From Thioalkalivibrio sp. (GTDB taxonomy: Bacteria > Pseudomonadota > Gammaproteobacteria > Ectothiorhodospirales > Ectothiorhodospiraceae), in the NCBI GenBank assembly GCA_011389655.1, contig JAABTX010000008.1, forward strand, positions 1 to 57,319: DNA of 57,319 nucleotides. Direction: 5' to 3'. The notes under the pieces are model-generated. The model did no database searches. It was not told the DNA's origin and saw only the letters and a program-made list of their open reading frames with translations. The translations under genes and the position numbers were made by a program. Below are positions 9,698 through 23,601 of this stretch, piece after piece. Position 1 is the first letter of the stretch, and each line of letters opens with the position of its first letter.

Positions 9698-10488
9698 CAG
9701 AACTCTTCCTCCGCTTCCAGTGCCTCGAGGGCGTCGAGTTCGTCCAGGTCATCCAGCCATGACTCGTCGTCCACCACCTCGCCATCGCGGACCAGAAACT
9801 CCCGGCGCTGCAGCCAGAGGTCCCGGATCGCGACGTAGCGGTCGTCCGAGTAGTCGTCCAGCAGGTCTTCGGTGGCCAGAAGGCCGGCCCGCGCATGCAC
9901 CAGGTCGAGCACCAGCAGGGCCGCGAAATTGTTGCGCAGCTCGCGCTGCTGGCCGACTGTGTAGTTGCGGGGATTGGTGTAGAAATCAACGACCAGCGCC
10001 GGGGCGTCGCGCCCGCTGCTCGGGCCCAGGAACGGAAGCTGCAGATAGGGACCGGCGGGTACACCCCAGGCACCGAGCGTCTGTCCGAAATCCTCGTTGT
10101 GCTTGGGCAGCCCCATCGGGCCGGCGACGTCGATCAGGCCGAAGACACCGAAGGAGGAATTGAACAGGATTCGTGCGGTATCGGAGGCCGCGTCGTGAAA
10201 CTTGCCCTGCAGCAGGTTGTTGAAGCCCACCCTGAAGTCGTCCAGGTTCGAGAAGAAATTGCCGACACCGGTCTGGACGGGCCCCGGGAGTTCCGAATAG
10301 ACCTCGGCCGCCGGCTTCAGCACGGCCCGGTCCAGCCGGTCATTGAAGGCGAATACCGCGCGATTGTATGGCTCCAGCGGATCCGCGGAATGACGATCCT
10401 CCGACGGGACGCTGGCGCAGCCGGAGAGAAGGGCGAACAGCAGCAGAAGGGCCAGGCGCCGGTGGGGCCTCGGGAGGTGCTTGTGCAT
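9697..10488 (-). CDS. mlaA: Outer-membrane lipid asymmetry lipoprotein MlaA (VacJ)
   Basis: A 263-residue lipoprotein of the MlaA/VacJ family, which removes misplaced phospholipids from the outer leaflet of the outer membrane and passes them to MlaC. The signal peptide ends in a lipobox LLSGC with C24 as the lipidated residue. The DPLEPYNRAVFAFNDRLD block follows, and the GVPAGPYLQLPFLGPSSGRD signature lies near residues 139-158. The C-terminus is very acidic, which is common. ATG 10488 is preferred over an in-frame ATG at 10512 because it gives a proper signal peptide and has GAGG a few bases upstream. No mlaBCDEF genes are in the window. Confidence 0.93.
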   Translation of the reverse strand: MHKHLPRPHRRLALLLLFALLSGCASVPSEDRHSADPLEPYNRAVFAFNDRLDRAVLKPAAEVYSELPGPVQTGVGNFFSNLDDFRVGFNNLLQGKFHDAASDTARILFNSSFGVFGLIDVAGPMGLPKHNEDFGQTLGAWGVPAGPYLQLPFLGPSSGRDAPALVVDFYTNPRNYTVGQQRELRNNFAALLVLDLVHARAGLLATEDLLDDYSDDRYVAIRDLWLQRREFLVRDGEVVDDESWLDDLDELDALEALEAEEEF

Positions 10489-10521
10489 CCGGTCCTCGGG
10501 TTGTCGTTCCATACGTCCGCC

Positions 10522-10566
10522 GGGCGGCGCGGCACGCCGGTGCTGCGGCACCCCGGCGCGCCGCCC
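10522..10566 (-). terminator. Nested hairpin directly after argG
   Basis: Inverted repeat GGGCGGCGCG (10522-10531) / CGCGCCGCCC (10557-10566), with an inner stem GGTGC / GCACC (10539-10543, 10548-10552). It abuts the argG stop codon at 10567 and precedes mlaA. No T-run follows, so it may stabilise the argG 3' end or cause partial termination rather than act as a strong terminator. Confidence 0.55.
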
Positions 10567-11793
<1,227 letters not shown>

Positions 11794-22279: not shown

Positions 22280-23236
22280 TCAGTCCACGAACAGCGAACT
22301 GACCGATTCCTCGGTATTGATGCGGCGGATGGTCTCCGCGAGCATCTCCGCCACGGACAGGAGGCGGATACGGCCGCAGGCCTCGGCGTTCGGCTGCAGC
22401 GGCACGGTGTCGGTGACCACGAGCTCGTCAAGTAACGAACCCTCTATGTTAGCAACTGCCGGACCGGAAAGCACGGCATGGGTCGCGTAGGCGTAGACCT
22501 TCTTCGCGCCGTGCTCCTTCAGTGCCCCCGCCGCCTGGCACAGGGTGCCGGCGGTGTCGACCATGTCGTCTATGATTACGCAGCACCGGTCTTCCACGTC
22601 GCCGATGATGTGCATCACCAGGGACTCGTTGGCGCGCGGCCGGCGCTTGTCGATGATCGCGAGGTCGGCGTCGTCGAGCCGCTTGGCGATGGCCCGCGCG
22701 CGCACCACGCCGCCGACGTCCGGGGAGACCACCGTCACATCGCCCGCCTCGCGGCGCCAGATGTCGCCGAGCAGGATCGGGGAGGCGTAGACGTTGTCCA
22801 CCGGCACGTTGAAGAATCCCTGCACCTGGTCCGCGTGCACGTCAATGGTGAGCACCCGGTCGGCACCCACGGATTCGATCATGTTGGCGACGACCTTGGC
22901 CGAGATCGGCACTCGCGCGGAGCGCACCCGGCGGTCCTGGCGGGCATAGCCGAAATACGGGATCACGGTGGTGATGCGCCCGGCGGAGGCCCGGCGCAGC
23001 GCATCCACCATGATCAGCAGTTCCATGATGTTGTCGTTGGTCGGGCGCCCGGTCGGCTGGATCACGAAGACGTCCCGCCCGCGCACGTTCTCGAGAATCT
23101 CGACCTGCACCTCGCCGTCGCTGAAGCGGCCCACGGTGGCCTTGCCCAGGCGCAGGTCGAGGTGCTCCGCGACCCGCTGCGCGAGCGGCAGGTTCGCATT
23201 GCCCGCAAAGATCATCATTCGGCTCTGGTTCGCCAC
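22280..23236 (-). CDS. prs: Ribose-phosphate pyrophosphokinase
   Basis: A 318-residue PRPP synthetase, supplying PRPP for nucleotides, histidine and tryptophan. The start region [15 protein letters not shown], the [15 protein letters not shown] block and the PRPP-binding [13 protein letters not shown] identify it. The start is taken as GTG 23236 because a G-rich stretch lies just upstream; ATG at 23218 would give 312 residues and is also close to the family start. No gene lies between this start and tRNA-Gln (290 nt), which is filled by a structured tRNA-derived element. Confidence 0.95.
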
Positions 23237-23370: not shown

Positions 23371-23483
23371 TGGCTGGGCCGGCAGGATTACGGCGCTGCG
23401 CGCCGCCCTCCGGGCCGTCGCCTGCGGCGACGTTCTGCCCCTTCGGGGCAGTCGAACCTTGAGCTTCGAACCCTGCCGGCCCC
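23371..23483 (-). other. tRNA-Gln-derived minihelix-like element with four tandem triloop hairpins
   Basis: It lies downstream of tRNA-Gln on the same strand. Bases 23371-23388 plus 23452-23459 repeat, without a mismatch, the 26 nt of the tRNA 3' end at 23527-23552. They are split in the T loop by 63 nt. The insert is four adjoining hairpins at 23392-23404, 23405-23415, 23416-23432 and 23435-23451, with minus-strand loops GCA, GGA, GCA and GAA. An 11-bp outer stem (23376-23386 / 23472-23482) equals acceptor plus T stem of the tRNA, and a GCCA tail follows at 23374-23371. The predicted fold is therefore an acceptor-T minihelix with a CCA end. Whether it is transcribed or processed cannot be told from sequence. 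Confidence 0.6.
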
Positions 23484-23488
23484 GCTTC

Positions 23489-23516
23489 GTGACGCCCAGT
23501 GGCATTCCGGCGTCAC
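23489..23516 (-). terminator. Hairpin just after tRNA-Gln
   Basis: A perfect 8-bp stem, GTGACGCC (23489-23496) / GGCGTCAC (23509-23516), with a 12-nt loop. It begins 11 nt beyond the tRNA 3' end in the direction of transcription. It could be a terminator or a 3'-trailer structure guiding tRNA processing; there is no T-run. Confidence 0.45.
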
Positions 23517-23526
23517 AATTCCTGTA

Positions 23527-23601
23527 TGGCTGGGCCGGCAGGATTCGAACCTGCGAATGCCGGGATCAAAACCCGGTGCCTTACCGCTTGGCGACGGCCC
23601 A
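23527..23601 (-). tRNA. tRNA-Gln (anticodon TTG)
   Basis: A 75-nt tRNA with encoded CCA. The acceptor stem is TGGGCCG / CGGCCCA, discriminator G, and the T arm is GCAGG-TTCGAAT-CCTGC. The anticodon arm is CCGGG-TTTTGAT-CCCGG, so the anticodon is TTG, reading CAA and wobbling to CAG. The D arm carries the AAGCGGTAAGG of bacterial tRNA-Gln. It starts 17 nt after the ispE stop codon and probably shares its transcript; ispE-tRNA-Gln-prs is a common gammaproteobacterial order. Confidence 0.97.

Follow-up and report, generated by a model that had tools for sequence, protein, structure and literature searches.

A Thioalkalivibrio member of the RtT/tRNA-linked-repeat family downstream of tRNA-Gln(UUG), its copied tRNA ends and its hairpin core

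An odd folded stretch at positions 23371-23492, read straight from the minus strand of the window (the whole 57,319-nucleotide stretch of Thioalkalivibrio sp. DNA analysed here) and lying directly 3′ of tRNA-Gln(UUG), is a newly found member of the RtT RNA/tRNA-linked-repeat (TLR) family. The Rfam covariance model RF00391 (RtT RNA) matches the element over its full length with 56.7 bits, against a gathering score of 45; the statement of the initial annotation that no described family has such a layout was therefore wrong, and assignment to an unknown family is rejected. Like TLRs, which follow a tRNA or 5S gene directly and on the same strand, the element follows a tRNA gene; its last 18 nt (23371-23388) agree with the 3′ end of that gene at 18/18 positions, where TLRs repeat 18-19 bp; and its paired structure, with compensatory changes, is common to E. 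coli RtT. As an explanation of the whole, we consider it rather probable that this is an RtT member built from the neighbouring tRNA, multiplied by recombination and yielding, after processing, a CCA-ended trailer RNA.

Anatomy and fold of the repeat

The features of the region are as follows.

23527-23601 (−): tRNA-Gln(UUG) gene, with encoded CCA at 23527-23529 (ARAGORN and Rfam RF00005, 64.7 bits)
23489-23516 (−): spacer hairpin GTGACGCC...GGGCGTCAC in the gap between tRNA and repeat, T run absent (sequence reading)
23371-23492 (−): whole RtT element (RF00391; cmscan E 1.9e-8, model positions 1-130 of 130)
23462-23485 (−): 5′ arm, antisense copy of part of the tRNA acceptor/T arm, 21/24 nt (local alignment)
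23452-23458 (−): GGTTCGA, direct copy of the 5′ half of the T loop, immediately ahead of the core (sequence reading)
23389-23451 (−): core of 63 nt, four hairpins in the T loop (sequence, fold and covariation)
23435-23451, 23416-23432, 23405-23415, 23392-23404 (−): core hairpins, with triloops GAA, GCA, GGA and GCA, respectively
23371-23388 (−): direct copy of the tRNA-Gln 3′ end, from T loop to CCA, 18/18 nt (sequence comparison)
22283-23218 (−): next gene downstream, presumably prs (ribose-phosphate pyrophosphokinase), judged by the protein sequence; marker for the orthologous site

About 34-35 nt separate the last base of tRNA-Gln (the end of its CCA) from the start of the element on the same strand, and the spacer hairpin, lacking a T run, is not a canonical terminator. 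Direct reading confirmed all the minus-strand elements that had been placed after tRNA-Gln in the initial annotation, including the GCCA terminus at 23374-23371. Removal of 23389-23451 joins AGGTTCGA to ATCCTGCCGGCCCAGCCA and restores the perfect 26-nt copy of the tRNA-Gln 3′ end that had been described, the core being inserted between what we take to be A58 and A59 of the T loop. The minimum free energy (MFE) fold of the element reaches −75.9 kcal/mol, compared with −53.7 ± 3.85 in 200 dinucleotide shuffles (z −5.8), and 0/200 shuffles were as low. It recovers the four hairpins with the annotated loops, as well as an outer stem which had been given as 11 bp and proved two pairs longer (13 bp): part of the 5′ arm pairs with 23376-23388, and 13/13 outer pairs form. 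Sequence and fold both support the proposed mimic of a T arm and acceptor carrying an insertion in its T loop.

Paired changes in the stems, which the initial annotation had named as a check, are present among relatives. We aligned 28 hand-chosen copies (27 distinct), E. coli and the window included, mostly downstream of Gln and Tyr tRNAs and with one Ser copy, which came from outside the genus. In this alignment 90.1% of cells are paired, compared with 76.9% after shuffling, and changes on both sides occur in 119 cells, compared with 37.0 ± 4.8 (0/500 shuffles as high) and with 16-39 when the partners are slid; 19 of the 35 pairs show change on both sides. Because the last hairpin is misaligned between sub-groups, it was excluded from this count. 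Among 122 distinct unaligned cores, 107 have a perfectly paired last stem of at least 3 bp, in 31 distinct stems, although this is a weak criterion. The small stem annotated at 23452-23456/23465-23469 is the weakest part of the structure: its cells are paired in 97% of cases in relatives, where its counterpart is mostly GAACC/GGTTC, but none of its pairs has changed on both sides, and RNAalifold omits it, pairing GTTC instead with the GAAC that follows the first hairpin.

Folded cores carry GNA in 250 of 314 triloops, a loop type that is unusually stable in single-stranded DNA. On whether the structure acts as RNA or as single-stranded DNA, a comparison of the strands gives mixed signals: in GNA hairpins, G:T mismatches outnumber A:C mismatches (20 vs 4), whereas the opposite trend appears in whole-core folds, with 98 G:U pairs in the sense and 137 in the antisense strand. 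The sense strand is the more stable one in 95/122 cores with RNA parameters and in 109/122 with DNA parameters. Standard copies and 17 copies of whole tRNAs (see below) alike have the core flanked by TTCGA on its 5′ side and by ATCC on its 3′ side; since we set the core anchors ourselves (GGTTCGA-like before, ATCC after, neither imposed by RF00391), the constancy of these flanks is partly built in. In the comparison of cores, 6/144 copies were dropped because the anchors gave no core.

Distribution and copied tRNA ends

Of the 58 genomes in the nearest set, which takes in that of the window, 32 have RtT matches, as do 26 of its 30 genus members. One genome, G029, has 17 matches, and the window's genome has two copies, the present one and one after tRNA-Gln(CUG). 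Wider draws gave matches in 51/274 genomes of the class and 39/299 of the phylum, same-class genomes being counted in the latter; the three draws overlap and all were filtered strictly, so that weak matches are lost. The 117 matches of the nearest set comprise 14 in whole tRNA copies and 103 standard copies. We also scanned a genome collection with a pattern that fixes GGTTCGAC before the core and TAATCC after it, leaving the rest of the ends free. This returned at least 117 stretches with at least 138 matches, at least 109 of them with a same-strand tRNA within 600 nt and at least 95 within 150 nt.

In the nearest set, an upstream same-strand tRNA is in view for 93 of the 103 standard copies, and in 81 of these 93 the copy and its tRNA have at least 15 identical terminal nucleotides in common. 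Seven of the ten others are no more than 255 nt away from the end of a contig. The three that are not (L045, L063 and L087) have ahead of them just a tRNA fragment, its 3′ part, which in L063 is very short; we infer a tRNA split by an island, with the repeats carried to its far end. In the pattern scan, among the matches listed, the 18-nt tRNA end is exact in 69/109 copies, at least 16 nt are identical in 79/109 and at most 14 in 30/109, so the CCA end is not universal. The mean 3′ match among the matches listed is 16.0 to the copy's own tRNA and 10.4 to tRNAs of other amino acids; in both comparisons four of the 18 nucleotides, ATCC, are set by the pattern. The 79 well-matched copies among the matches listed follow tRNAs for Tyr, Ser, Gln, Arg, Glu, Lys, Pro, Val, Thr and Asp; among the 30 poor ones, again within the matches listed, are 14 Arg copies and every copy that follows a Met or Ala tRNA. 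Judged by sequence identity, the comparison shows that the 3′ end of the module tracks the identity of the upstream tRNA.

Among the matches listed, 29 have no same-strand tRNA within 600 nt. In nine of these a tRNA follows closely, to which the 30 nt before the core could be aligned: five were identical to it and four differed at 4 to 17 positions. A few of the others, e.g., L183 and L223, bear no likeness to a tRNA and may be chance matches.

Local alignment to the reverse-complemented 3′ portion of tRNAs further shows, at the level of sequence, that the 5′ arm is an antisense copy of the neighbouring tRNA's T arm, together with acceptor strand. In the nearest set, the score with the copy's own tRNA exceeded the mean for tRNAs of other amino acids in 93/93 distinct cases (means of 15.1 and 9.9); the window's arm scores 18, compared with a mean of 9.3. 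The same held for 84/95 copies of the pattern scan among the matches listed. Since a T arm differs little from its reverse complement, the heptamer was left out when orientations were compared: antisense then exceeded direct orientation in 67/68 copies of the nearest set and, among the matches listed in the scan, in 81/95, with 11 equal and 3 below. Exact antisense matches extend up to 21 nt for Ser(gga), 18 for Ser(tga) and 20 for Arg, reaching the 5′ strand of the T stem and the variable region; in Gln copies the median is 10-11 nt.

In Gln, Tyr and Val copies the antisense arm extends into the acceptor side, which accounts for the acceptor-T minihelix of the initial annotation. Outer-stem pairing in these three is clearly better with the own tRNA end than with foreign ends. 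Ser copies fail in this respect (own 4.1-5.3, foreign 4.4-5.3), and overall the own end is higher in 63/96. The complete minihelix, real in the former copies, is thus ruled out as a general design by the Ser copies and by 3′ ends truncated after the T stem.

Seventeen tRNA copies are themselves interrupted after TTCGA/TTCAA (Gln 6, Ser 7, Val 2, Gly 1 and Arg 1), and each is followed, 175-260 nt downstream, by the same tRNA in intact form. Read by eye, every one of the inserts has a hairpin of the CCCGNAGGG type. The 5′ part is identical to the intact tRNA in 11/17, the CCA end is kept in 0/17, and the right-hand border of the core shifts by a few bases in at least two. This survey covered repeat-bearing loci and interruptions after TTCGA/TTCAA, and is accordingly silent on frequency and on other insertion points. 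There are further cases besides these 17, among them a core-bearing tRNA-Tyr copy in Kosakonia (L184) that retains its acceptor end and CCA.

Individual loci illustrate these arrangements. Whole tRNA-Gln copies with a T-loop core (L047:1474-1977 and L070:1492-1781, both tandem, L035:1876-1949 and similar ones) were read as having a perfect hairpin directly after the acceptor strand and no CCA. Whole tRNA-Ser copies of the same design occur in L038, L039 and L046, and near position 5745 of L173 (minus strand) a T-loop-filled tRNA-Ser(cga) is followed by an intact tRNA-Ser(cga) and then by a standard repeat with nearly the same core. A possible chimera near position 282 of L266 joins a tRNA-Gln 5′ part with T-loop core to a serine-like tRNA 3′ end.

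The design extends to 5S rRNA. In E. coli rrnB (NC_000913.3, 4171757-4172056), between T1 and T2, an RtT-type core, which shares 80% identity with the core of a Val copy, precedes a copied 5S 3′ end; an antisense arm is not evident in this copy (antisense score 6, direct 7). The first rrnB terminator was reported to stop 87% of transcripts, and the T1-T2 region is widely used in cloning plasmids (PMC8144298).

Gain, loss and transcript fate

The tRNA-Gln(UUG)/prs site offers a view of gain and loss. The tRNA is in view at 24 of 28 orthologous genus loci and, classified by eye, 15/24 sites are filled, 2/24 hold a remnant and 7/24 are empty; both remnants retain the outer stem and the last hairpin alone. 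Empty and filled sites can be paired between close relatives, as in G025 and G005, or in G016 and the window, whose Prs proteins are 99% identical. As 7/24 genus loci lack the module, it is not essential at this site. Tandem RtT units were found at several sites, and a 175-bp difference in repeat number is tabulated at an rtT RNA in Salmonella, in the portion of PMC2658671 consulted. The nearest core in other genomes shares the isoacceptor in 84/115 cases, the amino acid alone in 17 and neither in 14, and most copies therefore look inherited in place. Against this background, the Gln and Val cores of G051 are 94.5% identical, each with its own tRNA-specific ends. No other pair from different amino acids reaches 85% in the compared set; several pairs of Ser isoacceptor cores reach that level within one genome.

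We hypothesize that recombination between duplicated tRNA ends would multiply and remove the module, which would give tandem units and clean empty sites. The tRNA transcript would run on and the module would fold; its copied 3′ end might then be trimmed by the tRNA maturation machinery (RNase E and 3′ exonucleases), leaving a stable CCA-ended trailer like RttR. The processed CCA-ended RNA envisaged in the initial annotation is plausible by analogy: the annotated E. coli RttR, an RNA of 171 nt that follows tyrV, has as its 3′ end precisely the CCA of the tRNA-Tyr copy. If the repeat has a role, the likeliest would be that of a processed trailer tuning tRNA 3′ maturation or read-through. A stringent-response role was dropped: the early link of TLRs to stringent response and amino-acid starvation was later withdrawn, according to the portion of PMC8144298 consulted.

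A terminator-like hairpin with a T run precedes the module in 20/21 distinct Gln-ctg spacers, 2/2 Arg and 18/25 Ser (cga 8/8, gga 6/8, gct 3/5 and tga 1/4), and in 0/19 distinct Gln-ttg spacers and none of one Tyr and one Val spacer. Copies behind such a hairpin would be reached only by read-through, and their expression would be low. We regard it as unlikely that the module is itself a terminator. The tyrT repeat region of E. coli is a Rho-dependent terminator region, which speaks for that reading. So does the position of the 5S-linked relative between two terminators (PMC8144298). Nevertheless, no T run follows a hairpin in the window copy, seven of the 24 genus loci manage without the module, many copies already have the separate hairpin ahead of it, and a terminator would have no need of a copied CCA or an antisense T arm. 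A decoy or switch, in which the antisense arm would pair with the real T arm or the copied 3′ end and alter tRNA folding or processing, seems to us slightly less likely again. The long antisense matches of Ser(gga), Ser(tga) and Arg copies do exceed the reach of pairing with the copied 3′ end, but the tRNA is made and folded first, the Gln matches are shorter, and the proposal is drawn from sequence. Finally, we give practically no credence to a chance palindrome or a fragment of rRNA spacer or coding sequence: overlapping ORFs exist mechanically, while the RF00391 match, the z score and the covariation of the stems speak against it, the last two being the grounds on which a chance palindrome was rejected.

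The main competitor, which we hold to be possible though doubtful, takes the core as a mobile, satellite-like DNA insertion into the T-arm palindrome of tRNA genes, of no benefit to the host, which would survive wherever a second tRNA end exists or is created. The shared insertion point in standard and whole-tRNA copies fits such an element, as do presence or absence of the module at one orthologous site, the G051 cores with their different ends, the similar Ser isoacceptor cores, the Val-like core before the 5S end and the prevalence of GNA loops. Inheritance in place, as suggested by the nearest cores, argues against it, as does the isolation of the Gln/Val pair across amino acids. A phage collection gave no match to the repeat, and phage origin was rejected on this ground, though three viral contigs fit the exact pattern. 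Tentatively, the core may be specific to the tRNA T loop and a comparable point in 5S, entering at GGTTCGA^ATCC. Its products might be the downstream TLR and, upstream, a whole tRNA copy whose T loop is filled with hairpins and whose acceptor end is ruined, and stabilization by the duplicated tRNA end and antisense T arm is an equally tentative part of this proposal. Such an insertion, if true, would be a tRNA-targeting element of a kind absent from the literature searched. We favour RNA processing for the fate of the transcript, with T-arm-targeting DNA insertion as a possible account of the spread; the two are compatible.

Some records from mobile or viral collections were read individually. 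One viral contig (L278) has four tandem pattern matches at 10074-10714, and ARAGORN found no tRNA gene in its 13.7 kb. Nine Klebsiella plasmid records match, of which three were examined: the first has YchJ, purU, narI and narJ as neighbours, the second purU, and the third an Lrp-type regulator and a transporter that are both also in the first. We read these three as chromosomal tyrT-nar pieces filed as plasmids, and plasmid carriage was rejected for them. Two circular Klebsiella “plasmids”, NZ_CP079141.1 (position 141) and NZ_CP079158.1 (position 2), start in or beside an RtT repeat, as if cut there by assembly or recombination.

Comparison with known systems

Genomic islands at tRNA 3′ ends are inserts flanked by a direct duplication of the tRNA 3′ end, and the RtT unit likewise has this end duplicated on both sides. 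Unlike islands, it measures only ~155-225 bp, and its ends vary with the tRNA while the core is common. REP and BIME sequences are short, intergenic, GC-rich hairpins in many copies, a description that also fits RtT, and rttR is listed as REP-bearing in the consulted part of PMC12306157. RtT differs from them in its link to tRNA genes and in taking its parts from the adjacent tRNA.

The closest counterpart is E. coli rttR, with which the window element has in common the order of parts, the copied tRNA 3′ end with CCA and a hairpin core ending in ..TAATCC. The host tRNA is Gln in the window and Tyr in E. coli, and the window has one copy rather than a tandem array; from the tRNA end to the copied end it spans 156 nt, compared with 178 in rttR, and 13/13 outer pairs form, compared with 10/13. 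According to the excerpts of PMC8144298 available to us, tRNA-linked repeats were described in 1978 and their function is not known; E. coli has 22 copies at ten loci (Rudd 1999, as cited there), and their 3′ 18-19 bp are identical to the upstream tRNA or rRNA (5S) gene. The window element resembles these TLRs in copying the end of the upstream gene, and the rrnB 5S-linked copy has the same type of core. For that 5S-linked relative, RNase E was proposed to recognize the repeated 3′ end (PMC8144298, same excerpts). Elsewhere, in sources likewise consulted in part, Northern signals were obtained for two RtT RNAs in Actinobacillus (PMC4986893) and a tandem GA motif was reported in RtT (PMC7657543), and the consulted part of a paper on pseudouridine (PMC11623569) held nothing bearing directly on RtT.

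The TLR account in the excerpts of PMC8144298 is without an antisense T arm, an insertion point in the T loop or whole-tRNA copies; nor were these three found in the parts of the open-licence literature searched. Our comparison defines the parts of tRNA-linked repeats precisely, as an antisense T arm, a core placed in the T loop and a sense 3′ end, and adds empty and filled sites together with a natural series covering the tRNAs of ten amino acids (at least 16/18 nt, among the matches listed) plus 5S. Taken together, anatomy, sites and series open the ideas of RNA processing and mobile insertion to direct tests in E. coli K-12 and Thioalkalivibrio.
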